Positions 3,482 through 51,890 of a DNA stretch of 64,000 bases are shown here, piece after piece. A program made the position numbers and the translations under genes. The DNA is from Sideroxyarcus sp. (lineage in GTDB: Bacteria > Pseudomonadota > Gammaproteobacteria > Burkholderiales > Gallionellaceae). The stretch lies in contig JAUSBC010000071.1 in the NCBI GenBank assembly GCA_030652215.1, positions 1 to 64,000 on the forward strand, written 5' to 3'. How positions within the stretch are numbered: the first letter of the stretch is position 1; each line of letters opens with the position of its first letter. Below the pieces are notes generated by a model, which did not search any database, was not told where the DNA came from, and saw only the letters and a program-made list of their open reading frames with translations.

Positions 3482-3482
3482 A

Positions 3483-19707: not shown

Positions 19708-19722
19708 TATTATTGACACAAG

Positions 19723-32725: not shown

Positions 32726-32744
32726 CAGTATCCGACTCGAATGA

Positions 32745-33776: not shown

Positions 33777-34604
33777 CTAGCACGCCAATACAGACAAACA
33801 GGTGTCTGAATTTTGGAACCGCCAAACCTCAATCCACCAACGGCTACCCGCGACAAATTCGCCGCCTACCCCTTCCGTGATTTCAAGTGCAAGCCGAACC
33901 TCTGGCCCATGGTCGGCAGGAAGGAACTCGTAGCCACACAAACGAGCCTCCGAGAAACCGAAGAAGCGGCGTACACTTGGGAATGCCGCTTTGTACAAGC
34001 ATTCTTTCGCGCTAAAGACGTGCGTAACATGGGGGTACAGATCAGGCTGGCCGGCCGCTTCGCAGAGGCGTTGCAGCAATGCTAGTTCTGCACTGTCGAG
34101 CGCAAAAGTGCGCAACGCCCGCTGTGCATTGCCGCGCGCGGTCTGCTCAAGATCAATCCCTAGGTAGCGCCACGAATTTGCTGGTACTACCGCAGCCCCC
34201 GCCAGGCCGGGAACATGCGTGATGCTTCCCAGTACGCACTCTGGCCAAAGCGGCTCTCGATCACCGCCGATAGGTACCAATGCGCTTGCCAGCGCGGGAG
34301 AGAGTTGCGTTAGCGCATGTCGCGCGGCAAGTCGACCAAATACGAACTCAGCCTGACGACAGGACACGCTGCGCTCTATCTGTTTAGGCCACGATAATCC
34401 GGCTCGAGTTTCACCACTGGCGTGCCCAGAGACCGCGCTCGCGAATGCAACAAAATGCACCGCGAGCTCTACGACGGGTTGGTCTGGTTGGGTGCTTTTG
34501 ATGAGCATAGCCCAAGCACCTTCGAACCCATGTGGCGCAGGCTCGGTTTGAGGTAGGTTGGCAATAGTGCAGTCCAACGAATTAAACACCGATCCATTTT
34601 GCAT
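33777..34604 (-). CDS. 4'-phosphopantetheinyl transferase
   Basis: Predicted about 275-aa EntD-like transferase that loads the phosphopantetheine arm on carrier proteins. Metal/CoA motifs GIDLEQ and FSAKECLYKAAFP are clear. Start is uncertain: ATG 34604 (MQNGSVFNSL) is chosen, but the frame opens at 34661. Last gene of the leftward cluster. Its natural substrate is the ACP part of the ACP-GNAT fusion at 42514, which makes the pathway self-sufficient. Confidence 0.85.
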   Translation of the reverse strand: MQNGSVFNSLDCTIANLPQTEPAPHGFEGAWAMLIKSTQPDQPVVELAVHFVAFASAVSGHASGETRAGLSWPKQIERSVSCRQAEFVFGRLAARHALTQLSPALASALVPIGGDREPLWPECVLGSITHVPGLAGAAVVPANSWRYLGIDLEQTARGNAQRALRTFALDSAELALLQRLCEAAGQPDLYPHVTHVFSAKECLYKAAFPSVRRFFGFSEARLCGYEFLPADHGPEVRLALEITEGVGGEFVAGSRWWIEVWRFQNSDTCLSVLAC

Positions 34605-34709
34605 TGTACGGTTGTATGAAGGTTGAGGAGTTAAAAGCTCGCAGCAAACCCACAGGCACAATCGCGGGGCGAATACAGCCTAAAAGCAGCGCATCCACAT
34701 GAAGCACTA

Positions 34710-36221
34710 CTAGTGCACTCCCAATTCCTGGAGCCTTACTCTGAATTTTTGGTGGACACGATCTCGAACAATCTTCCCCTGCGCATTTCTCAGGCCGCTC
34801 TCGTTTGAGAAGGAATGCTTTACGATTAAGTATGTTCCAATGCGTTCTTCAGGCGCAAGCGTACTATTCACCTGTGCTAAACGCTTCACGACAAGCTCCT
34901 CGGAGAGAGTCGAATCTATAACGGCTAACAACCTTCCCGCGGATGACGCGAAGAGTACACACGCCTCGATGTCAACATCAGATGCAACTGCTGCTTCGAT
35001 CGGCTCCGGGTTGATCTTCCGTCCACTCGATAGAACAATAAGGTTCTTTAATCTCCCGGTGATGTAAAGGAATCCATCATCATCGAAATAGCCAAGATCG
35101 CCGGTTGGGAAAAATCCGTTGCCATCAAGAAAGCACTGCCCGACATTGAAAATGGCGCCTACACAGTAGTGCGTGTTGAGCTCGGCATGGGCACGCGCCA
35201 GGATCTCTCCAGATTGGTTGATCTTGATTTCTCGTCCCGGTAGGACACGGCCGACACTGCCGAGGCGATTATTTCCGGGTACGTTTTTGGTTAGAATTCC
35301 GGTTTCCGCAGTCCCGTAGCCCTGATAGACCGGAATTCCCAGCGCTTTGTATCGATTGAGAAGGTCAATCGATATGGGAGCAGAGCCCGTCCATAGATAG
35401 CGCAACCGCTTGCCAAAGATAGCTGCAGACACTTGCGAGTTTAAGCCCGTATCAACATTTGCCGCTTCGATATTCGCCTGATGATAGCGCTGAATTAGAG
35501 TGTCCAAAAAATGAGGCACAGCCATCACAACCGTCGGATGTAAAGTCGAGATGGCCGAGAAAGAGTGGATGTACGGTACAACGACAAGAGGGATGTCGAA
35601 CAAAATTGACGAGTAGATGAAGTACCGCTGCTGGAGCAGATAGAGTGGGAGAAACGAAAGTATCAAGTCGTCGGCACAATGATGCATTGCATCTTGAATA
35701 ACGTGCACACAATCGGCAATGTTTTGGGCCTTAGCCGGAATTCCTTTTGGCAGGCTAGTCGTCCCTGAAGTAAACTTCATGCATACGACTGAGTCAGCGT
35801 CGTATTGGAAGAACGGTGTATCGTCCTCACCGAGAGAATTTCTGTGTTCCAAGAGGGCACATAATGGGATTGCGTTACGATGCTTAGCCTCTCCTGGCCG
35901 ATCATGGAATAGTGCTTTCAGTCCATAGTGATCGATAAGGACCTCTGGCGGTTCCTGAACTTTCGGGTCGAAAGGTACAAGTACAATACCCAATGAAAGG
36001 CATGCCAGGTCAAGGAGTATCCACTCGTAACTGTTGTCGGCGAGGACGCCAATGGAACATCCGGGCTGGTGGCCAAGATAGTTAAGGTGTGAGCGCGCAC
36101 GGAGAACATCCTCAAATACCTCTGGATAGGTATAGCAGCGTCTATTACCCTGCGAGATGGTGTGCAGAGTTCCGGCGCTTTGTCGCATTCGCGCGACCAC
36201 TGTATTAAGGAGTTCAAGCAT
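34710..36221 (-). CDS. AMP-dependent acyl synthetase/ligase
   Basis: Predicted 503-aa adenylating enzyme. A5-type FTSGTTSLPKGIPAKA, YQGYGTAETG, FFPTGDLGYFDDDGFLYITGRLKN and a C-terminal lid ending NAQGKIVRDRV are visible; the last has the catalytic Lys. It activates a carboxylic acid and in this operon probably loads the ACP-GNAT protein (inference). The substrate could be a fatty acid or an amino or aryl acid; the pocket is not diagnostic. Confidence 0.87.
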   Translation of the reverse strand: MLELLNTVVARMRQSAGTLHTISQGNRRCYTYPEVFEDVLRARSHLNYLGHQPGCSIGVLADNSYEWILLDLACLSLGIVLVPFDPKVQEPPEVLIDHYGLKALFHDRPGEAKHRNAIPLCALLEHRNSLGEDDTPFFQYDADSVVCMKFTSGTTSLPKGIPAKAQNIADCVHVIQDAMHHCADDLILSFLPLYLLQQRYFIYSSILFDIPLVVVPYIHSFSAISTLHPTVVMAVPHFLDTLIQRYHQANIEAANVDTGLNSQVSAAIFGKRLRYLWTGSAPISIDLLNRYKALGIPVYQGYGTAETGILTKNVPGNNRLGSVGRVLPGREIKINQSGEILARAHAELNTHYCVGAIFNVGQCFLDGNGFFPTGDLGYFDDDGFLYITGRLKNLIVLSSGRKINPEPIEAAVASDVDIEACVLFASSAGRLLAVIDSTLSEELVVKRLAQVNSTLAPEERIGTYLIVKHSFSNESGLRNAQGKIVRDRVHQKFRVRLQELGVH

Positions 36222-36301
36222 GTGAATAGCGTAGTAAAAGTTAGATTCTTGAGCGCCTTAACCGACACTCGGTTTACATCAAGGTGTTCAGCGGGGCTGC
36301 A

Positions 36302-36994
36302 TTAATACCAGTTGGTGCGCACCCCCAAATATTGCGTTACCCCACGCTGGCCGAGATATCCGTTTGTCTGGCTCACATCGTTTATCCGATAGTAGACATC
36401 GAACATGTCATTCAGCGAGTAAATCAGGTCTGCCCATGAATTGCGTACAAACCCATTCTCCCCTGCGTTGTTGAACACGTTGTATCCTCTGAGCATTATG
36501 TGTTTTGGGACAATGTCGACACTATAGTAATGAAGAACTTCGCAATCTCCGAAATAAGGATCACTGGTGTTGCGAAGCACTTGCACGAAGGTTGTTATCC
36601 CGCTCTTTTTAAGCACAGGTCCCAATCCAAGCAATTCATTGAAGCTCAACTGTAGCCCCGCAGCTGCAACTGAGCCTTCTTGGTAATACGATCTGCCTCG
36701 CACGACCCATCCCAGCGGACTGTCGGAAAAGGGACCACCTAGGTTCACTTCGATTCGCCCATTGGTGTTGCGTCGCCCTTGGTCCATTTGGTAGTCGAGA
36801 ATTCCCAGCAAGTATGTTTTGTTCTTAGCCTGCAAAAAAGATGAGAAGGTAAAACTTGTAATGTCATTTTCGTCTATCGTATGGCGCATCTGAAGGCGGG
36901 TGATGCTGCTCGCAATCGAAAACCCGTCTTCCTCTGCGACTGCCTCCCAAGGCAGCCCGCACGCAATCAGTAGGCAGATCACTCTTGCTGACAT
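36302..36994 (-). CDS. Secreted outer-membrane beta-barrel-like protein
   Basis: Predicted 230-aa protein with signal peptide (MSARVICLLIACGLPWEAVAEE). The mature part has alternating beta strands and an aromatic last residue (VRTNWY), as in outer-membrane barrels. No named family recognised. Starts at 37018 or 37039 are also open. In the cluster it could export or sense the product, or alter the envelope. Confidence 0.6.
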   Translation of the reverse strand: MSARVICLLIACGLPWEAVAEEDGFSIASSITRLQMRHTIDENDITSFTFSSFLQAKNKTYLLGILDYQMDQGRRNTNGRIEVNLGGPFSDSPLGWVVRGRSYYQEGSVAAAGLQLSFNELLGLGPVLKKSGITTFVQVLRNTSDPYFGDCEVLHYYSVDIVPKHIMLRGYNVFNNAGENGFVRNSWADLIYSLNDMFDVYYRINDVSQTNGYLGQRGVTQYLGVRTNWY

Positions 36995-37061
36995 GTATAT
37001 ATTCTTACCAATCATGGTCTCTAACAGCATAACCGTCATCGCACGTCCTCATGCCGATAAA

Positions 37062-38204
37062 TCAAGGCTCTTCCGGCAGCATCGCTCGTAGCCTGCTGCC
37101 TTCGGGGTCATAAAATGTCCTTTCGACGAAGGACACCAGCCACTGACGATTACCTCTGCGCACGTAGCACGGACAATCCTCACTAATTGACGCATCAATC
37201 AAGCCCATCCCAATAACACGGCTTAATGTGGGGCTATTACAACAACTGGTAACTCGACCTACCGCTCTCTCTTGCGCATAGATCTCTGTGCCGCTGGGTA
37301 CGGCCTCCGCCCCCTCAACATAGAATCGGCGGAAGCGCCTCTCCACGCCTTTAGTCTTCACGCGTGAAAGCTCAATCTTCCCCAGAAATTTTTCCTTATC
37401 CGTGCAAACCGTCCAACCAAGGCCCATTTCATAGGGATTGTTTTGACTACTCATATCTACACCATGCAGTGCGTACCCTTTCTCAATTCGCAGAAATTGA
37501 GCCGCCATGATTCCGAATGGCACGATACCGAATTCCTCACCGGATTTAAGTAGGTGCCGCCATAGATGAGCTGCATGGCGGGCATCAGTGAAAAGCTCAA
37601 ATCCCCCCTCCCCAGTATATCCAGTGCGGGTCAAGAACACAGGAACGCCGAGAAGCGATGTCTGCGTAAAATGCATGTGTTTAAGGCCGGCCTCTTTCGC
37701 CCCCATCTCTTTGCGAACGAGTTCTAGGCTGCGCGGCCCCTGTAAAGCAAATTGTGTTTCTAATGTACTGACATCACGCATTTGAACTTCCAAACCACTT
37801 TCTTGGACCCACCGACTGATCCAAGCGCCCAGAATTTCCGCAGTCGCAACACTCGAAGTGACCAGAAACTCTTCGGCCGTCCTCGGGAAGATCAATACGT
37901 CGTCAATGATTCCTCCCTGCTCATCGCAAAAACAAGTGTACTGTGCAACGGACTTGCCTACAGCCAGCTGTACGTCGCTCGTCACCAAGAGCTGCATAAA
38001 GGCAAGTGCTTCGGGACCTGTAATGATGTGCCGACTCATTGGGTGGAGATCGAAAAGCCCGAGCGCGGTCCGAATAGCACGAACCTCTGTGTCAGGTGAG
38101 CCGTAGTGAAGTGGCCTGACCCATCCAGAGATGGGCATCAATCTACCACCGGCCTTCACGTGTTCGTCGTGAAACGGGGTTCTTACTCCATTGGCTATTG
38201 GCAT
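37062..38204 (-). CDS. GcvT-like aminomethyltransferase
   Basis: Predicted 380-aa protein with folate-binding GcvT architecture: TPFHDEHVKAGGRLMPISGW, GLFDLHPMSRHIITGPEA, CDEQGGIIDDVLIF, SVTRTGYTGE-type motif LTRTGYTGEGGFELF and the C-terminal barrel. It has no GcvH or GcvP partner here, so this is not the glycine cleavage system. In a biosynthetic setting it may transfer or remove a one-carbon unit with tetrahydrofolate (inference). ATG 38204 follows an alternative TTG. Confidence 0.85.
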   Translation of the reverse strand: MPIANGVRTPFHDEHVKAGGRLMPISGWVRPLHYGSPDTEVRAIRTALGLFDLHPMSRHIITGPEALAFMQLLVTSDVQLAVGKSVAQYTCFCDEQGGIIDDVLIFPRTAEEFLVTSSVATAEILGAWISRWVQESGLEVQMRDVSTLETQFALQGPRSLELVRKEMGAKEAGLKHMHFTQTSLLGVPVFLTRTGYTGEGGFELFTDARHAAHLWRHLLKSGEEFGIVPFGIMAAQFLRIEKGYALHGVDMSSQNNPYEMGLGWTVCTDKEKFLGKIELSRVKTKGVERRFRRFYVEGAEAVPSGTEIYAQERAVGRVTSCCNSPTLSRVIGMGLIDASISEDCPCYVRRGNRQWLVSFVERTFYDPEGSRLRAMLPEEP

Positions 38205-38363
38205 CAATATTACATTCTAATAATCAAATTTAACTTGCCGCATCTTGTTTTGGCATCAGCCAGAGACCGCCGTACTTGCTTACAGACCACGTAATAGAAA
38301 GCACAGCTGGAAGCCGGGTAGGTCAGTGCAGACTACGACTTCGTGTTTGAATCTGAGCCTCTC

Positions 38364-39521
38364 TCAGACGCTTTCCCTCGCGATCGCCAGGGCGGGTTTC
38401 CATTGTAGTAATAGCATAGATCCGACGACACAAAGCCCCCCCATAAATACCCAGGCTCCCGTAGGGCTATACTGAAAAATAGCAGGGAGCAGAAAGGCTA
38501 AAGAGACGGTAAATACTTCGGTAATACTACCGAATGAACCAATCATTGGCCCGCGCAAAGGGTGATTATCAACCGCGACAGCAAATACTTTCGTACCCGC
38601 AGGCAACATAATCGAGAACAGTAGTGTTTCCGCTAGAAAGGCAACCAAAAAGGTTTCAACCGAATTCGTGAAACCGCAGATGCCGATCAGGATGCCCATG
38701 CCAGCAAGACACCACACAGCTAACCTCTTGGAATCAAAACGATCCGCCAGCTTTCCTGTAAATACCATACATGCCGTTGAAATTATTCCAGAAGCGGTGA
38801 ACAGTAAGCCGACGCTTTGCGCCGACAACCCTAATCGATCCGTAGCAAATAACGGCACAATAATCATGAACGAGAAAAATAGCGCTCTCCGAAGTAAACT
38901 GGGGATGTACGGAATGAGGTAACTTAAATTAGCTGCAAGCTCCTTTATGCTTGCTTCCGATGGCGCAGACTCCTTATACCTTTGCGGCAACATAACGCTT
39001 ACAACTACTCCGAGTAAGCCGATAGCTCCGCCAACAATGAACATGCCCGTTGTACCAACGGTTTCGAGGGCTACCCAGCCGATCGTTGGGCCGATAATGA
39101 AGCCCATGCCGAATGCTGCTGAGAAATAGCCCATCAGAACCCCGCGGTTTTGTAGCCCAGTCGTCATCACGATTGCATAATGTGTGAGAACAACACCTCC
39201 TACACCTTCGGCAAATCCCTCCAGTATTCTCAGAAAAATAAAACCGGTTGGATTATTGCAGATTGGGTACAAGAAAAATGCAAGTGAGTAAACGACGAAG
39301 ACCGCCAACATAAGGTTGCGCCCACCCAGACGATTGAGTGCAACGCCCGCCCACGGCTTGGAAATGATCCGTGCAATGATCAGAGCGGCGAAAGGTAGCG
39401 ACAACCCAAGCGTGCTAAAGCCATATTCTTTGAGAAGAGTTGGAATTACGGGAATAATCATTCCCATGCCAGTATTGATTACTACCGTCAGAAAGAGGAC
39501 TGTCAGAAATGTTCTAGGCAT
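38364..39521 (-). CDS. MFS transporter
   Basis: Predicted 385-aa major-facilitator protein with about 12 membrane helices. VIPTLLKEYGFSTLGL and GVALNRLGGRNLMLA (loop 2-3) resemble drug/arabinose-type exporters. Located inside the biosynthetic operon, it most likely exports the product or gives self-resistance (inference). No clear ribosome-binding site precedes the ATG. Confidence 0.85.
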   Translation of the reverse strand: MPRTFLTVLFLTVVINTGMGMIIPVIPTLLKEYGFSTLGLSLPFAALIIARIISKPWAGVALNRLGGRNLMLAVFVVYSLAFFLYPICNNPTGFIFLRILEGFAEGVGGVVLTHYAIVMTTGLQNRGVLMGYFSAAFGMGFIIGPTIGWVALETVGTTGMFIVGGAIGLLGVVVSVMLPQRYKESAPSEASIKELAANLSYLIPYIPSLLRRALFFSFMIIVPLFATDRLGLSAQSVGLLFTASGIISTACMVFTGKLADRFDSKRLAVWCLAGMGILIGICGFTNSVETFLVAFLAETLLFSIMLPAGTKVFAVAVDNHPLRGPMIGSFGSITEVFTVSLAFLLPAIFQYSPTGAWVFMGGLCVVGSMLLLQWKPALAIARESV

Positions 39522-39644
39522 TGGAGTATGTCAGCACTAAAGAATTGAAAGATGCCTGCGTAATTTGCCAACATACCTTCGCGAGTATGGCATCGCTATT
39601 ACAAACCTGTGATTGGGGAATAGCATGTGCTCCATGCGATCTCC

Positions 39645-40298
39645 TCATACGCGACACGCATCAATAACAACTGAAGCTGGAATCGCCGATTCTCGAAGTA
39701 TCCTTGGCGCTGCACCAGTGCAGTCGACAATTGTCGACGGCACGCTATGCCTCAGAAGGTTGTCTCCTCCAACAGCGATATCTACCTGCTCGGCAAACTC
39801 CCATGCATCGTCGATCTTGGTAATTTCTGGCATGCCGGAAATATTGCAAGTCGTTCCAAACATAACTGAGCTGCAGGCACGCATCACCTCCGAGATAAAG
39901 TCCCCACTAGCCGTCATCACTGCGACCGTATCCTTGCCGTCGGTAAAACCACTTGGGACGATATCCCTTTTAGGCAGAACCAGTGCAAGCGCCTGATGTG
40001 GCCAAAACTGCTCAATCAACCGCCGCGCCATTGGGTTGAGGTAGGCGACACGCTCGACCTCGGATGCGACCGTATAAATGACAAAGGGCTTCCGACGTTC
40101 TCGCCTCTTGATTTCGTAGACGCGCTCATACGATTTTGGATCGAGTGCGTTGCCGAAAAATCCGTACACCGTATCAGCAGGAAAGAGAGCAACGCCTCCC
40201 TGATCTACGCATTGCGCAACCCTGTACGATACTTCCGAGGTCGGAGTGGAGTACCACTCTTTTGTGGCTCTCGTTTCGGTTTTCCCAAAGGTGGTCAT
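39645..40298 (-). CDS. YrdC/Sua5-like carbamoyl-AMP-forming protein
   Basis: Predicted 217-aa protein with YrdC signatures: GGVALFPADTVYGFFGNA, IKRRERRKPF, FWPHQALALVLP, TVAVMTASGDF, and TTCNISGMPE. Family members use ATP, bicarbonate and threonine for tRNA modification, or activate carbamoyl groups in antibiotic tailoring. As a stand-alone copy in a biosynthetic cluster, with no TsaD-type partner, it probably makes a (threonyl)carbamoyl-AMP building block (inference). The start at 40298 (MTTFGK) is preferred over 40376. Confidence 0.8.
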   Translation of the reverse strand: MTTFGKTETRATKEWYSTPTSEVSYRVAQCVDQGGVALFPADTVYGFFGNALDPKSYERVYEIKRRERRKPFVIYTVASEVERVAYLNPMARRLIEQFWPHQALALVLPKRDIVPSGFTDGKDTVAVMTASGDFISEVMRACSSVMFGTTCNISGMPEITKIDDAWEFAEQVDIAVGGDNLLRHSVPSTIVDCTGAAPRILRESAIPASVVIDACRV

Positions 40299-40388
40299 AC
40301 GTGTCTGTTTCTCATATTTGTTTATCACGACCACATCCCCGCAGAATGCAGCGCTGGCAAATCCCCAATAATGCACATGCTGGCGTAT

Positions 40389-41234
40389 TCATGGCTGGGA
40401 AAGGCTTCTAGCGATAAGTGCTGCAGCCGCTTGCCCATCATCCTGCACAAAGAAGTGCCCAGCACCCGGAACATCAACCAACGCCCAGGGCTCTTCTGAA
40501 TGGGTGTCGATTATTTGGCGCGTGGTCTTCCGCACATCGTCCGGATCATGCTCAGCTATAACGAAAGTCATCGCGATACCGGTGCGCAAAGGTTCGGTAT
40601 AACTGAAGGCGCGCGATAGCTCGAAGGCGCGGAGCAGTGCTTCGAGTCGGCTAAAGTCACGCAACCACTCCCGCATTACGCCAACAGCGGACAGGGGAGA
40701 GTAGCCAACAACTATCGACTGAACCACACTCATGAATCCAGAGTCTTCTCGTGCGCGCTGAAGCAAAGCCTCGGAGCCAATAGGCTGCCCCGCGCCGTAC
40801 CTCGCGGAGATTAAGCAGACGTGGGACGGCGGCGTATTCAGGTGTTTCAAGCTCACAACTACAGGAGAAACACCACTGGAGTGCGCAACCATGCAGTACT
40901 CTCGGAATCCGAGCGAGTTGATAAGCTCAGCCAAATCCTCCGCGCGACGCTGAACAGTTAAAGCGACCGGATCTTGGGGCGTCGGTCCCTCGCCCCCCCC
41001 CCTAGTGAAAACAAAAATTAACTTGAAATCAACCGACAACGCCAATATCGCAGGTAGCCAGGATGCATAGGGTGTCCCCAAGGCAGGCGAGACCACAAGC
41101 GGCCTCCCACTACCATGCTCAACCCATCGGATTTTTTCGCCATCCGAGGCGGTGATCTCCCTTGTCGTGTTCATCAGTGCTTTGGGTGAAAGCTCTGCTG
41201 CGTCAGAACTCGGGAATTGTATCCTGTGATTCAT
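40389..41234 (-). CDS. Alpha/beta hydrolase
   Basis: Predicted 281-aa hydrolase. The nucleophile elbow is VAHSSGVSP, the acid is in VIAEHDPDDV, and the catalytic His in GAGHFFVQDDG. ATG 41234 is set by GAGGAGG 12 bp upstream. It could be a thioesterase releasing acyl groups from the ACP, or an acyltransferase. A run of C residues at about 40996 lies in its coding strand complement; the frame is intact. Confidence 0.85.
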   Translation of the reverse strand: MNHRIQFPSSDAAELSPKALMNTTREITASDGEKIRWVEHGSGRPLVVSPALGTPYASWLPAILALSVDFKLIFVFTRGGGEGPTPQDPVALTVQRRAEDLAELINSLGFREYCMVAHSSGVSPVVVSLKHLNTPPSHVCLISARYGAGQPIGSEALLQRAREDSGFMSVVQSIVVGYSPLSAVGVMREWLRDFSRLEALLRAFELSRAFSYTEPLRTGIAMTFVIAEHDPDDVRKTTRQIIDTHSEEPWALVDVPGAGHFFVQDDGQAAAALIARSLSQP

Positions 41235-41268
41235 ATCTGAATGACCTCCTCGGTTTGAGCTCACTGCA

Positions 41269-42393
41269 TCAAGACAACTCAGCGGTTACGCGTTGAGTCG
41301 CTGCGGCAATTACTCCCACATCGGGCTTGGCTTTCTGGTCGGCTAGCGTGTATTTCTCAATTTTATGGGCGCAGCATGGCATTCCCTTCCGGACGTACAT
41401 CGTTCCTGTCGTCGGATGCATTACAACCGTGGCAACTGTTTCCGTTCGGCGCAGGTCACCGTCGGAGTGACTACACAACCCGACTGGGTAGTTTTCGTGA
41501 TCTGCGAAGAGATCGAATAGGTCGCTAGTGGTTGGGGCGCTTGGGAGCTTTATAGTTAACTCCCGGAGCTTCGATAGCCGCTGCACGGAGGAGTGTCGCG
41601 CCAAAAAATTGATGGTGTCCTTAGGAATCAAATCAGGGGATAAATAGTGATTTGTGTGAAACAATTCCTTCCCTTCCAGAACCGTGAACGAAGTCGCGGT
41701 CATTTCGACCGTAACACTGCGTTTCGAGTCGCAGATAGTTAGGCTGCGGGAACTGCTCCGCCGAATACTAGCTATTGCCTGAAGACACTCCTCAACTGTG
41801 TGCAGTTCGAGCAAGTGCCGCACCAACAGATAGGGAGGCACGCCGGGCCGCCAATCGTCGGAAGACACCATGTTGATTGCAATGGCTAAGCCACTCGAGT
41901 TCATGCCCAAGTACCCTAGCAAGCCGGCAAAAGAAAACATCAGGATTTCTGGTGTTCCGCACCATGGTGCGATTTTGAATACCGTGCCAAATTCCGCGAA
42001 GGAGCTATTAAGATCAACAGTTTGGGCAATAACTCGTGAATTTATAGGCAGCGAAAATGAGGAGCAGTCGCTGTTAGCTCCGTTACGTATCCGCATTAGA
42101 ACTTCACGCCGGACCTGGAGGAGTACCGCTTGCTCATAAGAAATCTCCGCACCCTCGGCGAGTCCTTCAATCTCTGCCGCGATCGAAGGCAACTCCAGTT
42201 CTATTTCAGAAGCGAATGACTTCACGTAAGCGTAGATCTGCTCCTCGGGAACCGGGCGTGGCAAATGGCAATTGATCCGCGCGCAGTCGTCAGAAAGAAG
42301 CCGTTTGATTTGTAGAGCCAACTTTCGCCCATGCTCGACCCCGCGGGATCTCGGATCACCTGATAGCCGTACAACATCTTCTACCATTTGCAT
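41269..42393 (-). CDS. C45-type acyltransferase (isopenicillin-N acyltransferase-like)
   Basis: Predicted 374-aa Ntn-hydrolase. The family RGxxHG-type start is RSRGVEHGRKLA, and the autoprocessing nucleophile is Cys in NSDCSSFSL at about residue 110. FAGLLGYLGMNSSGLAIAIN is typical of C45. The enzyme should cleave itself before Cys and transfer or hydrolyse an acyl group on an amide. It may acylate, deacylate or trim the product (inference). Confidence 0.85.
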   Translation of the reverse strand: MQMVEDVVRLSGDPRSRGVEHGRKLALQIKRLLSDDCARINCHLPRPVPEEQIYAYVKSFASEIELELPSIAAEIEGLAEGAEISYEQAVLLQVRREVLMRIRNGANSDCSSFSLPINSRVIAQTVDLNSSFAEFGTVFKIAPWCGTPEILMFSFAGLLGYLGMNSSGLAIAINMVSSDDWRPGVPPYLLVRHLLELHTVEECLQAIASIRRSSSRSLTICDSKRSVTVEMTATSFTVLEGKELFHTNHYLSPDLIPKDTINFLARHSSVQRLSKLRELTIKLPSAPTTSDLFDLFADHENYPVGLCSHSDGDLRRTETVATVVMHPTTGTMYVRKGMPCCAHKIEKYTLADQKAKPDVGVIAAATQRVTAELS

Positions 42394-42513
42394 TTTGAAC
42401 CTCTACGCGAGGAAATCTCGCTGTTGGAACGCTGTCACGGTTACTGATGAACTCATTACCTTCATTTCATCACTCAGCAAGAAATACGTTTTGGGAGGGC
42501 AAGGTCAATCGTC

Positions 42514-43395
42514 CTAGTATCCAACCCGGTACTCATGCTTCCCACTCGTTATCCGCTGACCAAGCGCCGAGCTCACTTGAGCCCACTCTTCGTTGAGTAA
42601 GGAGTAGTACACCGTATCGCGATAGCGCCCATCATGCATTAAGGTGTGTGAACGCAACACACCATCCCGCTTCGCACCAATCTTTTCAAGTGCTCCGCAG
42701 GATCGGGGGTTTGCATTATCAGTCTTGAACTCTATACGGTGCGCGTCGAGTTCCTCAAAGTAATACTTCAACATGAGGTACTTGACGACATTGTTTAGCC
42801 CTTTCCCGTGATATTCTGGGGCTAACCAGGTCCAACCGATTTCGACCCGGCGGTCCTTTGCAGACAGATTCCCGAAGCTAGAGCTACCAACAATAGCGCC
42901 GCTGTCTTTTAGGCAAATTGCGAAAGAATAGCGCTTACCGGCTTCCCGGTCAGCAATAGCCCGTGAAACATACTTGCGAACGTCGTCCTTGTTCGAAAGC
43001 GCCTCAGTCGTATACTTCCAAATAAGCGGGTCTGTAGCAGACTCGACAATCTTCCCAACGTCCTGTTCCACCCAAGGCCTGAGTACAACCCCCCATCCTT
43101 CCAATACAATATCGGAATTGAAATCGAGCATATTTTTTTCTTGTATGGGAAGCTTCGAGGCAATTACGCGTTCTAAATCGCCTACCGTATGGGCAGAAAG
43201 GATATCCCTCTCTGAGAACTTCATCAGGTCAATGCCCAGCACCACCGCAACATCTGTCAAGATGGTAATGTACTCCATTGACGAAATGCCTAAATCATCC
43301 TTGATGGAGCTCTCAGCGGACACCGAAGTCTCTTGGAGACCCTTGACGGCTGCAATCTTACGTCGGACTATTTCAGACAACTTCAAGTGGTTCAT
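42514..43395 (-). CDS. ACP-GNAT fusion protein
   Basis: Predicted 293-aa protein. Residues 1-82 form an acyl carrier protein with attachment Ser39 in DLGISSMEY (SSM in place of the usual DSL). Residues 95-275 form a RimJ/RimL-like GNAT N-acyltransferase: LRPWVEQDV, RRVEIGWTWLAPEYHGKGLNN, FKTDNANPRSCGALEKIGAKRDG. The ATG follows GAGGAGAAACG. Such a fusion could pass the acyl group from its own carrier to an amine. LuxI enzymes share the GNAT-like fold, so it could be a signal or amide synthase (inference). Confidence 0.85.
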   Translation of the reverse strand: MNHLKLSEIVRRKIAAVKGLQETSVSAESSIKDDLGISSMEYITILTDVAVVLGIDLMKFSERDILSAHTVGDLERVIASKLPIQEKNMLDFNSDIVLEGWGVVLRPWVEQDVGKIVESATDPLIWKYTTEALSNKDDVRKYVSRAIADREAGKRYSFAICLKDSGAIVGSSSFGNLSAKDRRVEIGWTWLAPEYHGKGLNNVVKYLMLKYYFEELDAHRIEFKTDNANPRSCGALEKIGAKRDGVLRSHTLMHDGRYRDTVYYSLLNEEWAQVSSALGQRITSGKHEYRVGY

Positions 43396-43508
43396 TTTGC
43401 GTTTCTCCTCATATCGCGAATCTGTAGTGAATCCGGCTTGATCGCATCATGCGACGCCGACAGGGCCTTAGCATGGCGGTGCCCTACTTGGTGTAATGGA
43501 AAATAATT

Positions 43509-43844
43509 TCACATTTTTGGTTGGAGCAAGAATTCTCTTTTATTACTCACAGTTCGCCAATGCTCACGGTCTGGTAGTGGAGCCGAGACACCGGCAATAG
43601 CACGTGGCCATATTTGAGAGAGTTGTCTATTTATTTCGATGAATTCTTTTTGAGCTTCTGGCAGATCTTTATCTTGATAAATAGCCTCGACTGGACATTC
43701 CACCGCACAAGAATTGCATTCGATGCATACATCAGGATTGATAACCAAAAACTCGGGTCCTTCATGGAAGCAATCTACAGGACAAGGATTAATGCAGTCC
43801 GTGAATTTACAGCGAATACATTTTTCAGTAACGACAAATGCCAT
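43509..43844 (-). CDS. fdxA: 7Fe-8S ferredoxin (FdxA-like)
   Basis: Predicted 111-aa ferredoxin. CIRCKFTDCINPCPVDCF and CIECNSCAVECPVEAI supply the ligands for one 3Fe-4S and one 4Fe-4S cluster; the C-terminal extension is typical of FdxA. Start at 43844 (MAFVV). In this cluster it probably supplies electrons to the diiron oxygenase at 46480 (inference). Confidence 0.9.
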   Translation of the reverse strand: MAFVVTEKCIRCKFTDCINPCPVDCFHEGPEFLVINPDVCIECNSCAVECPVEAIYQDKDLPEAQKEFIEINRQLSQIWPRAIAGVSAPLPDREHWRTVSNKREFLLQPKM

Positions 43845-43869
43845 ATCTCTACCCACCTATATGTGTAAA

Positions 43870-45609
43870 CTACGCGATTGTAGTAACCATTTCTGATCTT
43901 TTTGGTGAGTAGACTTTATCGAACCATTTTTTATCTCCAAACGAAAATACAAAGTTTTTGTTTTCTTTCAGTACAAAATTCATCAAGCTTTGATATATGA
44001 ATTGAAGAGCTTCAGTGTAGGCAATGGCTGTGACTAAGTCTTCACGGCTATACGGATCGCCAGACTGACGCATTAACCTCAAATCAATAAATCCTGGGAG
44101 CATAGTTTCTCTTATACAAATGGGCAGTGGTGATCTGATACTGTAACGAACAGTGGCATGCATATGGCCGGTATGATGATGATCAGAGCAGTCTGCAATA
44201 TCAGCCATTCGTGGAGCATAAAACCAGCCACGGTCAGCAGGAATACTTTCAATTTTGAAATAGCTTGGTGCGTAATGCCAAGCGTTGAAGCGCATGCGTC
44301 CAGATATTGCACTGAGAATCATTGTGAGCGTCTTTGGTGGATACTCTGCTTTCATTTTTTCGTTTGGAACTACGTGGCAAATATACTCTGCCTGCCCCCA
44401 CGCACAAACAAGTTCGGCTTGACCTTGACACAAGGCCGTGGAGAATTTAAGAAAATCACGCGCACATCGAGTCATACCAAAGTCAGACCGTGTACTGCGC
44501 ACAGCCTCTGCTACCACATAATCAACCAAAGACTCAAGACGAGACGGAAACGGAACTTCTTCTGAAGCAATCAATTCCTTGAGTAGCTCTCCAAAAGAGC
44601 TAGGAAGAAACGCTTGTTGGGCAGACCCGCTTTGCCCCATCCAACGCTGTAGTAAGGCCATGGTGCGCGCAGAGGGGTTCACGGACGCTAGTGAAGCATT
44701 TGCTTGGACGGGTGGAATTGGAAGTATAACTTCCTTCTTACACAGATTCACACTATTGATATGGCGACTAAAACGACTAGTAGTAGATTCGACGGATTTC
44801 CGCATATCAGCAAGCAATACAGCCTTTTTTTCCAAGGAGGACGAGGAAAACATGGAGAAGGCATTTACATCAGAGCGGATGCCACCAGTTTTCTGATAGA
44901 TGCCATATTGGACATCCAAATATTTATCTAGAACAGGTCGAGACAGTTGGCTCGAATTTAATTCTTCGAGGCGCGTATAGCTTCCAGAATGCAAAAGCAA
45001 ATGCATACAATAGGCTGTGGTCAGAGACTCAATAGAGGAACTTTTGCGCTGTTCGATAACCTCTTTTAAGGTTTGCGCCAAGGTACTTTCTAATTTGAAA
45101 CCAGATTTGCCAATGTCGTAGAAATTGGAAACACAGCGTTCGCCAACGTAATAAATCAAAGGGGCCATATGGACGGATAAGGCCAACAGTTCCCCGCAAA
45201 CATTTTCGACCCCATGCCGGACCAAGTAGTTCAGGATGACAGTTCGTTCTTGCTCCAACGCACATTGTTCTGACTGCTTTAGTGCCAGGTATGTAAGCAG
45301 TTCATCTTCTGAAAGTTCAACGTGCCCAAGTAAGGTAAGAAACTCTGAGTGAGCTTCAAAATCCTTCCTCGGCAGAAAATACAATCTCCCATGCGGTCGG
45401 AAAGCTAAACTAATTTGACCATTGGTAGAGAATCTGTGGTGCCTATTCGTTATGCATTCGATTGCGTAACATTCTGCTGATGTTAATGGCGCAAGCTTAT
45501 CCTCTTCTGGGATACACCCATCCAACGTAAGAGCACGTTGAACCAGAATAAATGCCGGTATTTTTTCAACCTGGGTGACCAGATCCGCGATTAATTTCTC
45601 TATTGACAT
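43870..45609 (-). CDS. Unknown 579-aa cluster protein
   Basis: First large gene of the leftward operon. No signal peptide or membrane helix is evident. A His-rich stretch at about residue 480 (DCSDHHHTGHMHATVRYS) could bind metal. The N-terminal half is helical and rich in Leu/Ser; several Cys are scattered. No family recognised. Its position next to the promoter and beside the ferredoxin and ACP-GNAT genes suggests a core biosynthetic role. Confidence 0.6.
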   Translation of the reverse strand: MSIEKLIADLVTQVEKIPAFILVQRALTLDGCIPEEDKLAPLTSAECYAIECITNRHHRFSTNGQISLAFRPHGRLYFLPRKDFEAHSEFLTLLGHVELSEDELLTYLALKQSEQCALEQERTVILNYLVRHGVENVCGELLALSVHMAPLIYYVGERCVSNFYDIGKSGFKLESTLAQTLKEVIEQRKSSSIESLTTAYCMHLLLHSGSYTRLEELNSSQLSRPVLDKYLDVQYGIYQKTGGIRSDVNAFSMFSSSSLEKKAVLLADMRKSVESTTSRFSRHINSVNLCKKEVILPIPPVQANASLASVNPSARTMALLQRWMGQSGSAQQAFLPSSFGELLKELIASEEVPFPSRLESLVDYVVAEAVRSTRSDFGMTRCARDFLKFSTALCQGQAELVCAWGQAEYICHVVPNEKMKAEYPPKTLTMILSAISGRMRFNAWHYAPSYFKIESIPADRGWFYAPRMADIADCSDHHHTGHMHATVRYSIRSPLPICIRETMLPGFIDLRLMRQSGDPYSREDLVTAIAYTEALQFIYQSLMNFVLKENKNFVFSFGDKKWFDKVYSPKRSEMVTTIA

Positions 45610-45811
45610 GATTCACCAATCGATTCTAGATGATTTGAGATTTTCGTTTTTGTCGTTAGCATTAAAGGTTCCCTATTGTCTTACAGCATCAGCCAGAATT
45701 TCGTTTTGCTTGTAAGGCGCAGAACAAACATGAGTGCATCGTGCACAGCCAGACTCCACCAAAAAGCGCAAATATTGCTATCTCTTGTACCAAGTTATTG
45801 CTTTGCCGAAA

Positions 45812-45973
45812 CTATGCGCCTATCTTCAACAACACATTATGCATTTTGCATAACCTGGCCTTTTGAGCAAAACCCCACAAGTTCTCTGTAGAGCGCGTTG
45901 TTTCTGCATTCTGTAAAAAACTAATCAACGATTCGAAACTCCTTGTTTCGTGCGCCAATTCCATTTCGTTCAT
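45812..45973 (-). CDS. 53-aa ORF in the long leader of the leftward operon
   Basis: First ORF downstream of the predicted lux-box promoter on this strand: MNEMELAHETRSFESLISFL..., ending LLKIGA. A TAG lies just before the ATG, and GGGG lies about 9 bp upstream as a weak ribosome-binding site. The sequence looks protein-like (charged, amphipathic), but there is no homology. It could be a precursor or leader peptide, or chance. Confidence 0.35.
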   Translation of the reverse strand: MNEMELAHETRSFESLISFLQNAETTRSTENLWGFAQKARLCKMHNVLLKIGA

Positions 45974-46132
45974 CTAAATGCCCCAATCGTTCTACGATTT
46001 AGTGTCATTGAAACTCGTAACTTCACTTCGGCCAGGCTTTCTCGGGGCCGACCTACTACGATAGATGCGCGGCATTGGAACATGATCGCGAACCACTACC
46101 TAAGCCCAAATGACACATGGCATGACAACTGA

Positions 46133-46179
46133 ATTCTATGCGAGGAAGAATAATTGCGTACCTATCAAGACAGATAGTT
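46133..46179 (-). promoter_or_regulatory. Lux-box-like operator and promoter for the leftward operon
   Basis: A 20-bp imperfect palindrome ACCTATC-N6-GATAGTT lies at 46160-46179. On the minus strand a -10 TAGAAT (46133-46138, 5 of 6 matches) lies 21 bp from its edge, so the box is centred near -43 as in class-II LuxR promoters. Predicted start is about 46126, giving a leader of about 517 nt before the 579-aa gene. Confidence 0.7.
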
Positions 46180-46227
46180 GTCCACCAACGCCTATCGTTG
46201 ACGCAACCACCGGAATAGCCTGCACAT

Positions 46228-46274
46228 ACCTATCAGTTTGGATAGTTATCACAATTACCCATCTCGCATATGTT
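46228..46274 (+). promoter_or_regulatory. Lux-box-like operator and promoter for the rightward operon
   Basis: The second box ACCTATC-N6-GATAGTT (46228-46247) shares both 7-bp arms with the first. On the plus strand a -10 TATGTT (46269-46274) again lies 21 bp away; predicted start about 46281. The two boxes are 68 bp apart, and the promoters face away from each other. An isolated half site (CCTATC) lies between them at 46191. Confidence 0.7.
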
Positions 46275-46479
46275 CTTATACCAAGGTAATGCTGTTACGC
46301 ACTCGGGCCAGCCAGAAAGATGCGGTTTGGAAATTTTCATAGCGCTAGATATTGATCTCAGACATCAATGGCATTAGGCACTTTGAGGAGCGTACTCCTA
46401 CCCAGCAATTTGATTGAGATATGCTCCCAATTCATGCGGGGTGAACTCGTCAGAATTTACAACGTGAATAAGGAAATTG

Positions 46480-47256
46480 ATGATGAGTAGATCAAGCACC
46501 CTCGAGACAGGCCATGAATTTGTTACCGCACTATGTGAAGAAGCTCGCAATCATCGCGCAGTCAATCACCCGTACCTGCAGCAATTAATCGCCGGCGACG
46601 TTCCTGACATCAAGGGCGCGCTAAAAGACTTCGTATTTCAGTACTCTGCGTATTCTATGGATTTTATCCGCTATCTCACCGCCACCATTGCGCAGCTCGA
46701 GAGAGGGGAGCACCGCAAGGCCCTCATGAAGAACCTGGTTGAGGAGACCGGCAAAATTGATGCAGAGAATGCCGCACTCCTCGGGACGATAGGCATCGAT
46801 TTGGAGTGGGTTGACGGGATTTCCCACCCCGAACTCTTCTCGCGCTACATGAATGCAGCAGGTATAGACAAAGAATTCCTGCGAAATAATCAGTACGCGG
46901 ATGAGGCTGTCGTTTGGCGAGACCTATTCTTCTCTCTGTGCTCCAAGGAAGGCCCCACTCGAGCTCTCGGTGCAATCGGACTCGGTACCGAGAACATCGT
47001 CAAATACATCTACCGCCCCTTCATCAAGGCGATTGAGCGGCACCTCGATATCTCGCTGCGTGATCGCGTATTTTTCGACCTCCACGCCGCGCTCGATGAT
47101 CAGCATGGTGAGGCGTTAACGAATATAGCTATCGATTACGCAGAAAATTGGGAGCATCGAAAGCAGATTCGCGATGGCATGCACATGGCCCTCAGCATCA
47201 GGAACGCGTTTTTCGACGCATTGCAAGCCAAAGCTCTGGCCATGAAGCCTACTTGA
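46480..47256 (+). CDS. Heme-oxygenase-like diiron oxidase (HDO/TenA-PqqC fold)
   Basis: Predicted 258-aa all-helical protein. NLVEETGKIDAEN, ELFSRYMNAAG, GTENIVKYIYRPF and DLHAALDDQHGEALTNIA supply Glu/His/Asp candidates for a diiron site, as in SznF, UndA and related N-oxygenases or decarboxylases. ATG at 46480 follows AAGGAAATTG; the frame could start at TTG 46477. First gene of the rightward operon. It probably oxidises an amine, guanidine or acyl substrate (inference). Confidence 0.75.
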   Translation: MMSRSSTLETGHEFVTALCEEARNHRAVNHPYLQQLIAGDVPDIKGALKDFVFQYSAYSMDFIRYLTATIAQLERGEHRKALMKNLVEETGKIDAENAALLGTIGIDLEWVDGISHPELFSRYMNAAGIDKEFLRNNQYADEAVVWRDLFFSLCSKEGPTRALGAIGLGTENIVKYIYRPFIKAIERHLDISLRDRVFFDLHAALDDQHGEALTNIAIDYAENWEHRKQIRDGMHMALSIRNAFFDALQAKALAMKPT

Positions 47257-47331
47257 TGGCTACGCGCCATCAATGGAAAAAACCCACAAGTAGCAGCAGT
47301 TTATTATGAACTATCCAAGAAAGACTTGACC

Positions 47332-47799
47332 ATGAAACCAGACAACTACATCTACTCTTCACGCGATTTCGGCGAAACCATTGCTACACTCGACATCGCC
47401 AGACCGGACCGGCCCCTCATCCACAAAGATGTGACCGGCACCAAAAACAAAGCCAATCAAGGATTCACCGAAGACAGAAAGCATCCTGTGCACATTGTGG
47501 ATTTGCCGAGCAGAGCCGTCAGCGTGTCCATCGGAGGGATTCTCGGTGGAGGCAGAACCCGCAAACACCGCCACACCTATGAAACCATCATCTACATTTT
47601 GAAAGGCAAGGGATACAGTATTGTCGAAGGAGTGCGCGCTGACTGGGAAGCCGGCGATGCGGTACTGGTTCCCCGCTGGAATTGGCACCAACACTTCAAC
47701 TTGAGCGAGACGGAATATGCTGAGTATCTGGGAGCCGAGAACGCACCTATGCTGCAGAATCTGGGGTTGGCATTGCGCGAAGAAGCCGAGAAGTGGTGA
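47332..47799 (+). CDS. Cupin-domain protein
   Basis: Predicted 155-aa single-domain cupin. Motif 1 is HRHTYETIIYILKGKGYSIVEG, and motif 2 is GDAVLVPRWNWHQHFN, giving three or more His and a Glu for metal binding. It lies 75 bp after the diiron gene on the same strand. In SznF a diiron HDO and a cupin are fused and form an N-nitroso product; the split pair here may act in sequence too (inference). Confidence 0.85.
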   Translation: MKPDNYIYSSRDFGETIATLDIARPDRPLIHKDVTGTKNKANQGFTEDRKHPVHIVDLPSRAVSVSIGGILGGGRTRKHRHTYETIIYILKGKGYSIVEGVRADWEAGDAVLVPRWNWHQHFNLSETEYAEYLGAENAPMLQNLGLALREEAEKW

Positions 47800-48191
47800 G
47801 TTGCATTTACTTAAGTAGATCCAGGGTGCCCGCACACTGAGACCGTCCGAATCGCGTCGCGAGTGTCTCTGAAATTTCGCGTCACGATCAGCGTTCGCAC
47901 GGAGTCAACCTCAACTGCATTGTTAAGCGTGAAAACCGTCACGATGTAGATTGGATTGACCAGCCGGGCGGGCTTCTTGGGGCGCACGTAAAAGGATTGG
48001 ACCAACAATTGCGAGCAATCCATATCGTTGTGGCCGCTCCAACTTTTGCGCGTTTGCGTTGCATTCTTGTGTCCTACTGTTGTTTTTTGTTGCAACCATT
48101 TAGATTGACAATTACTCTTAGCCACATGCGTACCAATGGTGGTGGATCACGTACTAGAGCTTCTTATAAGGAAGCCAAATATTTCTTGGAT
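47800..48191. other. Intergenic stretch before luxR
   Basis: About 390 bp without a supported gene. A 104-codon open frame on the minus strand has unlikely composition and no ribosome-binding site. No lux-box-like palindrome was seen, so luxR may have its own weak promoter or be read from the upstream operon. Confidence 0.4.
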
Positions 48192-48216
48192 AGGAGGAGA
48201 TCATATGCACTGAGTG
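48192..48216 (+). promoter_or_regulatory. luxR translation start with a two-codon ORF
   Basis: A strong Shine-Dalgarno AGGAGGAG (48192-48199) leads to ATG-CAC-TGA (48205-48213), a complete two-codon ORF. The luxR GTG follows immediately (48214-48216). Translation of LuxR may depend on restart at GTG, or on the internal ATG at 48229, which would keep the level of the regulator low. Confidence 0.55.
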
Positions 48217-48951
48217 GAATTATTGTCTATGAAATTTTTCGAACGAAGTCTTTCTTTGCTGGACTGTACAACAGAAGAAGCATTGGAAAACGAGGTAATT
48301 CAAATTGGGAGTGACTTGGGATTTGAACAGATATTAATGGCTAAGACCTTCCGCCTCCCTGTCTCCTTAGATACGGCATCAATTCTCGGAAACTTTTCTG
48401 ATAAATGGTTCAATTACTATTGCCGCGAGCAGTTGGTCAACATTGACCCAAGGGTCGCTCACAGCAAAACTCACTCAACTCCCTTGCTCTGGGATCCGTC
48501 CATTTTCGTAAGCAAGGACCAGAAAGAAATGTACGAACAAGCTGCAAGTCACGGCCTGTCCTCTGGAATTACACTCCCGTTCCATGGGGCGAAAGGTGAG
48601 GTAGGAATGCTAAGTTTTTCAACATCAGCCAAGCCAGGCCTCAATACACAACGGGATCTCTGCCATGTATTGCCCATACTTTCCATGATACGTGATTTCG
48701 CTTTCGATGCTTCTTTTCGCTTTGCCAAACGAGTCAATCACGAACCCACTCCACCCATCACTCTACGCGAGCTTGAATGTCTAAAATGGTGTGCCAGCGG
48801 GAAAAGTTCCTGGGAGATATCAACAATATTCGGTTGTTCGGAAGCGGCGGTGAATTTTCATTTTAGCAATTTGAGGAGAAAGTTTAATGTCCACTCCCGT
48901 AGGGATGTAGTGGTCAAAGCAATTCTTCATGGATTACTAAATGTGCGTTAA
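48214..48951 (+). CDS. LuxR-type quorum-sensing regulator (solo)
   Basis: Predicted 245-aa AHL-type receptor. The N-terminal pocket has WFNYYCREQLVNIDP (Trp, Tyr, Asp-Pro), PLLWD and GLSSGITLPF, the usual acyl-homoserine-lactone contacts. The C-terminal HTH has TLRELECLKWCASGKSSWEIS and VNFHFSNLRRKF. No luxI is present in the window, so the ligand is unknown; it could be an exogenous AHL or the cluster product. It probably binds the two lux-box-like sites at 46160 and 46228. Confidence 0.9.
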   Translation: MELLSMKFFERSLSLLDCTTEEALENEVIQIGSDLGFEQILMAKTFRLPVSLDTASILGNFSDKWFNYYCREQLVNIDPRVAHSKTHSTPLLWDPSIFVSKDQKEMYEQAASHGLSSGITLPFHGAKGEVGMLSFSTSAKPGLNTQRDLCHVLPILSMIRDFAFDASFRFAKRVNHEPTPPITLRELECLKWCASGKSSWEISTIFGCSEAAVNFHFSNLRRKFNVHSRRDVVVKAILHGLLNVR

Positions 48952-51504: not shown

Positions 51505-51890
51505 CATAAAGATGTGAGGAACAATCAATTACGCAGCCGAATTTAAGCCGGCAAAAGGACCGGCAGTGTTACTGATGAGACAGGCCAGACTTCCTCTGAT
51601 AGGCATCGCCCGATGTTCGGAACAGTCCTTCGCGAACGGCAGCTTTAGCGAAGGCAATTTCGAAACTTGAGCTACTGCAATGTTTCAATTACAGTCGGTC
51701 AAGCGGCGTGGAATTGTGCTGGTACGAAGGCCGTCCTTCGGCCACAACCGAATGATCCAGATTGCCATACCATCTGCTTAGGGGGCATGATGCACGTAGA
51801 AATTTCGAATACTATGGTATCGAGTTGGTGCAAACATGGCTTATGACAATGCACTTTTCAAAATCTATTAGATATGAACGGGGAAGAGAT
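51505..51890. other. Intergenic stretch before the caspase gene
   Basis: No gene supported. One hairpin (GGCCG/CGGCC near 51728-51742) is visible. The caspase reading frame is open from 51762, but the ribosome-binding site points to 51891. Confidence 0.4.

Follow-up and report, generated by a model that had tools for sequence, protein, structure and literature searches.

A LuxR-linked gene cluster of Sideroxyarcus sp. with a KinJ-family heme enzyme, most likely serving N-N bond formation

Described systems and the fourteen-gene set

KinJ, FzmP and NegJ, described in 2025 by Kenney et al., are heme enzymes which, together with a ferredoxin, convert nitrite and an amino acid to a hydrazine; no clue to this function came from the sequences, and over half of the KinJ gene clusters fell outside known product types (PMC12154649). 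NegJ is not mentioned in the passages covered of PMC12797225. In the azaserine route, hydrazinoacetate is succinylated by a GNAT protein, a ligase loads the product, a C45 protein strips the succinyl group and an acyl-CoA-dehydrogenase-type enzyme leads to the hydrazone (PMC10445470, PMC13061610). Elements of both systems were found in Sideroxyarcus sp., in the first 64,000 nucleotides of contig JAUSBC010000071.1 (GCA_030652215.1; this whole stretch is called the window), where fourteen genes lie at 33777-48951 (Table 1). As judged from its sequences, this gene set is most likely a nitrogen-nitrogen (N-N) bond cluster, because a KinJ-family enzyme and a ferredoxin occur together with an azaserine-type acyl carrier protein (ACP) fused to a GNAT, an AMP ligase and a C45 protein. 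We consider it reasonably likely that the cluster was acquired horizontally, is linked to its LuxR receptor and directs, by the steps proposed below, the synthesis of a small exported N-N-bonded molecule.

The window shares with the KinIJ/FzmP/NegJ system the heme-enzyme family, the conserved residues, the GAF-like fold and an adjoining ferredoxin of the low-potential type. The set is without the glutamine-synthetase-like, PurB-like and amidase partners of kinamycin and fosfazinomycin, and it includes YrdC, GcvT, a heme-oxygenase-like diiron oxidase/oxygenase (HDO), a cupin and LuxR, unlike that system (PMC12154649). AMP ligase, carrier protein, GNAT, C45 and phosphopantetheinyl transferase (PPTase) are common to the window and the azaserine (azs/aza) and dob clusters, and azs also holds an HDO and a LuxR-family regulator. 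In place of the lysine N-oxygenase, FAD enzyme and MetRS-cupin of these clusters, all missing from the set, the window has KinJ and the ferredoxin; its ACP is fused to the GNAT, and an acyl-CoA-dehydrogenase-type oxidase, ketoacyl-ACP synthase III, nonribosomal peptide synthetase (NRPS) or polyketide synthase (PKS) is not found in the set (PMC10445470, PMC13061610). The N-nitroglycine pathway is likewise based on hydrazinoacetate, with an HDO and an alpha/beta hydrolase required or implicated, whereas its P450s, NRPS and lysine-based N-N formation have no counterpart among the fourteen genes (PMC13274452).

Three kinds of genomic loci also resemble the cluster. The LuxR-KinJ clusters of Burkholderia stagnalis and B. 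ubonensis (L004, L073, L083, L086) share LuxR, KinJ, AMP ligase, ACP, GNAT, C45, FdxA, MFS and HDO with the window; they differ in that ketosynthases, an acyl-CoA dehydrogenase and a diiron enzyme of the AurF type are added, YrdC and GcvT gave no match in them, and their KinJ is distant. Trinickia diaoshuihuensis (L007) has a close KinJ (40%) and ferredoxin (57%), an HDO and a cupin, but HDO and cupin are fused and no carrier module, YrdC or GcvT match was found within 21.7 kb. In Paenibacillus sp. MMS18-CY102 (L012), KinJ, YrdC, GcvT and an MFS transporter, all present in the window, are consecutive, with no match for ferredoxin, carrier module, HDO or cupin beside KinJ.

An initial annotation had listed the fourteen genes as one biosynthetic cluster beside a LuxR gene, without PKS or NRPS and without a described counterpart. 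Open reading frames and Pfam/NCBIfam matches bore out the gene set, and the reading as one cluster was upheld; the LuxR domains (PF03472, PF00196) were found, no PKS or NRPS family was matched among the fourteen genes in these scans, and the literature searched held no described pathway of this full composition.

KinJ-family enzyme, ferredoxin and carrier module

A tblastn search with the 579-aa protein against plasmids gave distant relatives in eight records (seven Streptomyces, one Burkholderia). Three of the Streptomyces regions were examined and were of the aromatic-polyketide type, with ferredoxin, glutamine-synthetase-like, PurB-like and GNAT genes and, in two of the three, an amidase; the Burkholderia region carried LuxR, AMP ligase, ACP, GNAT, C45, FdxA and HDO beside the KinJ relative. 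A genome scan with the 579-aa protein as sole query gave no match, and an alignment-based scan of named genomes succeeded, from which 80 loci out of 101 related stretches were kept. All KinJ-locus counts given here cover 84 loci outside the source genome, near-copies and short contigs included. The family was reached via relatives in kinamycin- or lomaiviticin-like and other regions, not via the named KinJ, FzmP and NegJ sequences. Based on homology and the predicted fold, the 579-aa protein almost certainly belongs to the KinJ family. It had been left as an unknown in the initial annotation; as a KinJ-family heme enzyme it would place N-N bond formation at the center of the chemistry.

The KinJ residues C468, R497, M498, N501, H504, H541, R551, R570 and K356 are all kept in the window protein (9/9; in the same order C411, R438, M439, N442, H445, H482, R492, R511 and K291). 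Eight of the nine were read across an 18-row alignment and were identical, with two exceptions: L086 differs at the cysteine, and L011 at five positions, where this row leaves its reading frame. An AlphaFold2 model of the protein (pLDDT 89.0, pTM 0.89) had the heme-bound GAF domain of DosT (2vzw) as its best Foldseek match in the PDB (E 0.043, probability 0.98). The same distant match, with the likeness in the C-terminal domain, was reported for KinJ itself (PMC12154649). No solved structure was related to the protein by sequence up to E 1.

The FdxA-type ferredoxin gene starts 13 bp downstream of the KinJ-like gene, and its product is 52-63% identical to the KinJ-adjacent ferredoxins of Burkholderia, Trinickia and Ramlibacter. 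We take the FdxA type in general to be a ‘7Fe’ ferredoxin. In the Burkholderia KinJ clusters, a 7Fe ferredoxin adjoins KinJ (PMC12154649). A quick tree of the KinJ family (84 rows), for which the program warns of long branches, placed the Trinickia KinJ within a four-row clade with the window protein. The KinJ-like protein very probably forms a hydrazine.

The composition of the cluster had been called unfamiliar, but ACP-GNAT, AMP ligase, C45 and PPTase match a module known from azaserine- and triacsin-type clusters. The order AMP ligase, ACP, GNAT, C45 is common to the window, the azaserine-type clusters and the Burkholderia clusters. The ACP half of the fusion protein stays below the Pfam cut-off (PF00550, 17.6 against 20.8 bits); it aligns with azaserine-type carrier proteins across the serine region, which is kept. 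Among the matches listed, the GNAT part has 41-46% identity with GNATs encoded in clusters of the azaserine, Burkholderia KinJ and kinamycin-like types and in one Rhizobium N-N region. For the C45 protein, which keeps the DC[ST] cysteine, identities in the same listing are 36-42%, and the AMP ligase shows 35-38% identity with ligases from azaserine-type clusters and from the KinJ clusters of Burkholderia. Together with seven such ligases, it forms one side of a branch with 100% SH-aLRT support (16-row quick tree), with which a GNAT tree (18 rows) and a C45 tree (13 rows) agree. By these comparisons, the four proteins probably constitute an azaserine/triacsin-type hydrazinoacetyl-carrier module.

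Some KinJ clusters hold homologues of Tri31 and Tri29 (GNAT and ligase), for which glycine was suggested as the substrate (PMC12154649). The window composition fits this suggestion and, by analogy, glycine is the somewhat favored substrate of its KinJ-like enzyme. If instead another amino acid were used, e.g., aspartate as for kinamycin, the module would handle a different hydrazino acid or protect the hydrazine by acylation only. Kinamycin-like clusters (L001, L039, L054, L065, L076) do hold a related GNAT and sometimes a C45 without an AMP ligase, so both can serve another hydrazine, and the arginines thought to bind the substrate, being identical in all 18 rows, cannot separate glycine from aspartate. 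However, the AMP ligase, which is the step reading the hydrazino acid, groups with the azaserine-type ligases at 100%, and the set lacks the kinamycin-route genes named above, which makes the use of another amino acid unlikely.

Among the Burkholderia KinJ loci, L004:349-30305 on a B. stagnalis replicon looks like an uncharacterized N-N polyketide cluster, with LuxR, KinJ and carrier module, ketosynthases, HDO and an AurF-type diiron enzyme, and three radical SAM proteins upstream.

HDO, cupin, YrdC and GcvT

The model of the HDO (pLDDT 77.1) matched best the fold of the N-oxygenase HrmI, followed by CADD, UndA and BesC. Its residues E89/E90, H117, E172, H203, D207 and H210 are invariant in five rows, and among these the metal ligands presumably lie. 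The nearest solved relatives of the cupin are gentisate dioxygenases. At the Trinickia locus, KinJ and ferredoxin are followed by one HDO-cupin fusion protein, two genes after KinJ. An HDO is a candidate for a late N-oxidation in azaserine biosynthesis (PMC10445470) and in N-nitroglycine biosynthesis (PMC13274452). For HDO and cupin as the carriers of the oxidation step in the window, chances appear about even. A SznF-type nitrosation was also considered, given HDO and cupin, and rejected, as no SznF was among the solved-structure matches listed for either protein. An azaserine-type cluster with a 767-aa HDO-family protein was also seen on a conjugative Sinorhizobium meliloti plasmid (L094:2223-18189).

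Four of the 84 KinJ loci have a YrdC match (L009 Thiomargarita, L012 Paenibacillus, L041 Hydrogenophilus and L059, a metagenome-assembled genome of Actinomycetales), and three of these four, namely L012, L041 and L059, are the only loci with a GcvT match (hypergeometric p 4e-5, a statistic which ignores relatedness). In all four, YrdC directly follows KinJ, and GcvT comes next where the contig continues; that of L009 ends inside YrdC. The window YrdC is 45-53% identical to these four, and the window GcvT 35-36% identical to the three GcvTs. No match for carrier module, HDO, cupin or ferredoxin was found at the four YrdC loci, which leaves the window as the sole case of their combination with YrdC and GcvT among the loci covered. 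The L059 KinJ is far from the others in the quick tree with its long branches, and the link may be old or may have been made more than once. In L012, an MFS gene follows KinJ-YrdC-GcvT. About 0.7 kb upstream of this run lies a methylene-tetrahydrofolate-reductase-like gene (L012:7926-8930), a possible link to folate. The Hydrogenophilus KinJ (L041:9728-12020) is broken and split between frames; its C-terminal part and YrdC share one continuous frame.

YrdC and GcvT might be hitchhikers from general metabolism, standing outside any N-N pathway; both come from housekeeping families, and no reaction of theirs with hydrazines is described in the literature covered. This is regarded as quite unlikely, given that both directly follow KinJ elsewhere, that the genome has a TsaC and GcvT of its own, and that the cluster YrdCs share motif changes. 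Beyond the cluster copies, the genome holds two YrdC-family matches, i.e., a 193-aa TsaC-like frame and a 781-aa frame which is HypF-like by size, and two GcvT-family matches. The threonylcarbamoyl-AMP synthase (TsaC/Sua5) motifs PT, an arginine (VAVR) and SAN, present in the genome's TsaC and the five solved relatives listed, are not kept in the window YrdC, which has PAD, AVMTA and TTCN at these sites; the cluster YrdCs covering the sites (window, L012, L041, L059) share PAD, AVMTA and GTT[CV]N. These changes suggest that the cluster YrdCs use another substrate. In the window GcvT, the folate-binding domain (PF01571) and the C-terminal barrel (PF08669) were matched, and the scores are below the NCBIfam GcvT cut-offs (275.9 against 300 and 222.8 against 235.85).

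That YrdC carboxylates and adenylates a hydrazine or amine, and that GcvT transfers a folate-borne one-carbon unit, is a guess and rather doubtful in this exact form. Somewhat less speculative, and still tentative, is the wider proposal that KinJ-YrdC-GcvT is an undescribed three-enzyme route of Pseudomonadota, Bacillota and Actinomycetota, in which a hydrazine derived from nitrite would be N-carboxylated and adenylated by a repurposed YrdC and a folate one-carbon unit gained or lost via a GcvT that is likewise repurposed; the window would graft this route onto an azaserine-type module and HDO-cupin under quorum control, which would give a new class of N-N products. Full-text literature searches gave, among the papers listed and as judged by titles and abstract openings, no report of a KinJ-YrdC-GcvT run (supplements and subscription papers were outside their scope), and the words YrdC and GcvT are missing from the main texts of PMC12154649 and PMC13061610, the neighborhood figure of the former being covered by its legend only. 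The known families in this combination, and the associated YrdC-GcvT pair, were likewise not found described in the literature searched. The run points to possible new chemistry in two housekeeping folds, and KinJ-YrdC-GcvT(-MFS) is small enough to be expressed whole, which makes an orphan N-N pathway of three phyla directly testable.

Proposed pathway, regulation and genomic context

In the proposed pathway, the KinJ-type heme enzyme and the ferredoxin would reduce nitrite and couple it with an amino acid, glycine being the likeliest, to form hydrazinoacetate. The GNAT would succinylate the hydrazine, the AMP ligase would load it onto the fused carrier activated by the PPTase, and the C45 protein would remove the succinyl group. 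Oxidation of the hydrazine by HDO and cupin, in the role of the acyl-CoA-dehydrogenase-type enzyme of the azaserine clusters, would then yield a hydrazone, diazo or N-oxygenated form. YrdC would activate an amine or hydrazine as carboxy-adenylate and GcvT would move a folate-borne one-carbon unit, before the product is freed by the alpha/beta hydrolase and leaves the cell via the MFS protein. According to the authors of the KinJ paper, KinJ may take the place of the azaserine-type N-N enzymes; the window agrees with this idea, as a Gram-negative example beside a LuxR gene.

Several observations weigh against this pathway. The numbering of the nine KinJ residues was transferred from the Streptomyces relative L001, not from KinJ itself. 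No Foldseek match of the 579-aa model was below E 0.001, so the likeness to DosT is weak by E-value. Outgroups are few in, or missing from, the GNAT and C45 trees, and all carrier-module trees are quick trees with long branches. Homologues of the module and the oxidases are scarce among the 84 KinJ loci (GNAT 12, C45 9, HDO 5, cupin 1), and the four loci with YrdC are all without the module. The fourteen genes encode no enzyme of the acyl-CoA-dehydrogenase type, so the cluster lacks the known hydrazone step (the search for such an enzyme covered these fourteen genes, not the remainder of the genome). The nitrite-making pair CreDE was not found among them in the Pfam/NCBIfam scans; most KinJ clusters are without CreDE as well (PMC12154649). 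The idea that the host is an ammonia oxidizer feeding its own nitrite to KinJ was dropped, since PF02461 was found in 0/1 and 0/34 genomes, a weak negative as no control genome matched.

The initial annotation had proposed an acylated, N-oxidised or carbamoylated small molecule. As a metabolite without an N-N bond, this would require another function of the KinJ relative, and indeed the family is only 23-45% identical across the 18-row alignment, its functions may differ and the hydrazine activity is predicted only. We regard it as very unlikely in view of the nine residues kept, the adjoining ferredoxin and the hydrazinoacetate-type carrier module, taken together; within an N-N product, ‘N-oxidised’ may still apply to the HDO step and ‘carbamoylated’ to that of YrdC.

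The divergent gap of 867 bp between the two gene blocks holds two copies of ACCTATCA-N5-GATAGTT, 68 bp apart. With zero mismatches, the pattern occurs at no other place in the genome; with up to two, one further place was found, as for the backward control pattern. Up to three mismatches gave five matches, four of which are the two sites read on both strands, and 0/100 shuffles reached five; the pattern was derived by eye from the sites themselves and the shuffle test was made after the fact, hence these numbers speak for uniqueness, not function. A scan for CTG-N12-CAG was uninformative (25 observed, 17.5 expected, 4/100 shuffles reaching 25) and a stricter lux-box-like pattern gave 0 matches. 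LuxR is probably a solo receptor, because no LuxI was found in the source genome (about 90% complete) by a search which was positive in four of eight other genomes (Trinickia, two Burkholderia, Ramlibacter). As putative binding sites, the lux-box-like palindromes in the divergent promoter would support the quorum-sensing control of the cluster that the first description of the locus had proposed.

None of the fourteen frames is interrupted; the minus strand encodes eleven genes, KinJ-like through PPTase, and the plus strand three (HDO, cupin, LuxR). Pfam/NCBIfam matches were obtained for PPTase, AMP ligase, GcvT, MFS, YrdC, alpha/beta hydrolase, C45, GNAT, FdxA ferredoxin, HDO, cupin and LuxR (autoinducer-binding and GerE domains); the 579-aa and 245-aa proteins matched zero Pfam families.

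Table 1. Features of the cluster, with positions in the window; roles are predictions.
Feature	Position	Strand	Basis
Sfp-type phosphopantetheinyl transferase, predicted carrier protein activation	33777..34661	-	PF17837, PF01648 above cut-off
AMP ligase, probably of the azaserine-type kind loading succinyl-hydrazinoacetate	34710..36221	-	PF00501, identities, tree
245-aa protein (candidate outer-membrane label only)	36302..37039	-	0 Pfam families
GcvT-like folate-binding enzyme, extra copy	37062..38207	-	PF01571, PF08669
MFS transporter, probable exporter (predicted)	38364..39521	-	PF07690
YrdC-family enzyme, altered motifs, extra copy	39645..40376	-	PF01300
Alpha/beta hydrolase, possible product release	40389..41264	-	PF12697
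C45 N-terminal-nucleophile hydrolase, putative azaserine-type desuccinylase	41269..42393	-	PF03417, NF040521
Carrier protein fused to GNAT, putative hydrazinoacetate succinyltransferase type	42514..43395	-	PF13302, weak PF00550
FdxA-type ferredoxin, putative heme-enzyme partner	43509..43856	-	NF045490, 136.9 bits (cut-off 135)
KinJ/FzmP/NegJ-family heme enzyme (579-aa), proposed N-N bond former	43870..45609	-	Homologues, tree, residues, fold
Palindrome 1, 20 bp, lux-box-like	46160..46179	+	Sequence symmetry
Palindrome 2, 20 bp, lux-box-like, 68 bp from palindrome 1	46228..46247	+	
Heme-oxygenase-like diiron oxidase/oxygenase (HDO)	46477..47256	+	PF14518, fold model
Cupin, fused to HDO in Trinickia	47326..47799	+	PF07883; fusion in L007
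LuxR receptor, probably solo	48214..48951	+	PF03472, PF00196; no LuxI found in genome

At 49.4%, the GC content of the cluster is below that of four other genome stretches (58-62%) and of the neighboring phnCDE genes (59.2%), and the cluster is therefore probably horizontally acquired DNA. KinJ was found in 0/33 other genomes of the genus and in 0/60 relatives searched; wider scans by class and by phylum had the window itself as sole match in 369 and 398 genomes, and none was found in IMG/VR. A silent or misbinned foreign fragment without product in this organism would show the same foreign GC and rarity, and the source is a 3.64-Mb draft in 128 contigs (89.85% complete, 2.7% contamination) which yielded no 16S sequence; as all frames are open, the key residues are intact and rarity and foreign GC fit a recent transfer equally, this is improbable.

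The phosphonate transporter genes next to the 49%-GC cluster (phnCDE-like, 30915-33623) are host-like (59% GC, GC at third codon positions 0.75-0.80), and the stretch around them is otherwise low in GC. At 2804-7863, where GC drops from 60% to about 50%, lies a Tn7-like transposition row (TnsA-like 2804-3481, Mu-transpos_C 3483-5366, TniB 5363-6268, TniQ 6265-7863). Transposon ends were not found, the repeat search having given weak pairs only, and the biosynthetic cluster is at most a candidate cargo of this element. A region at 14125-24172 with a UvrD-like helicase, a 492-aa protein without assignment and a 1074-aa N6-methylase/Eco57I-like protein looks like a defense-type region. On the other side of the cluster, at 51762-53437, a caspase-like peptidase C14 protein is encoded, which overlaps a 291-aa protein.

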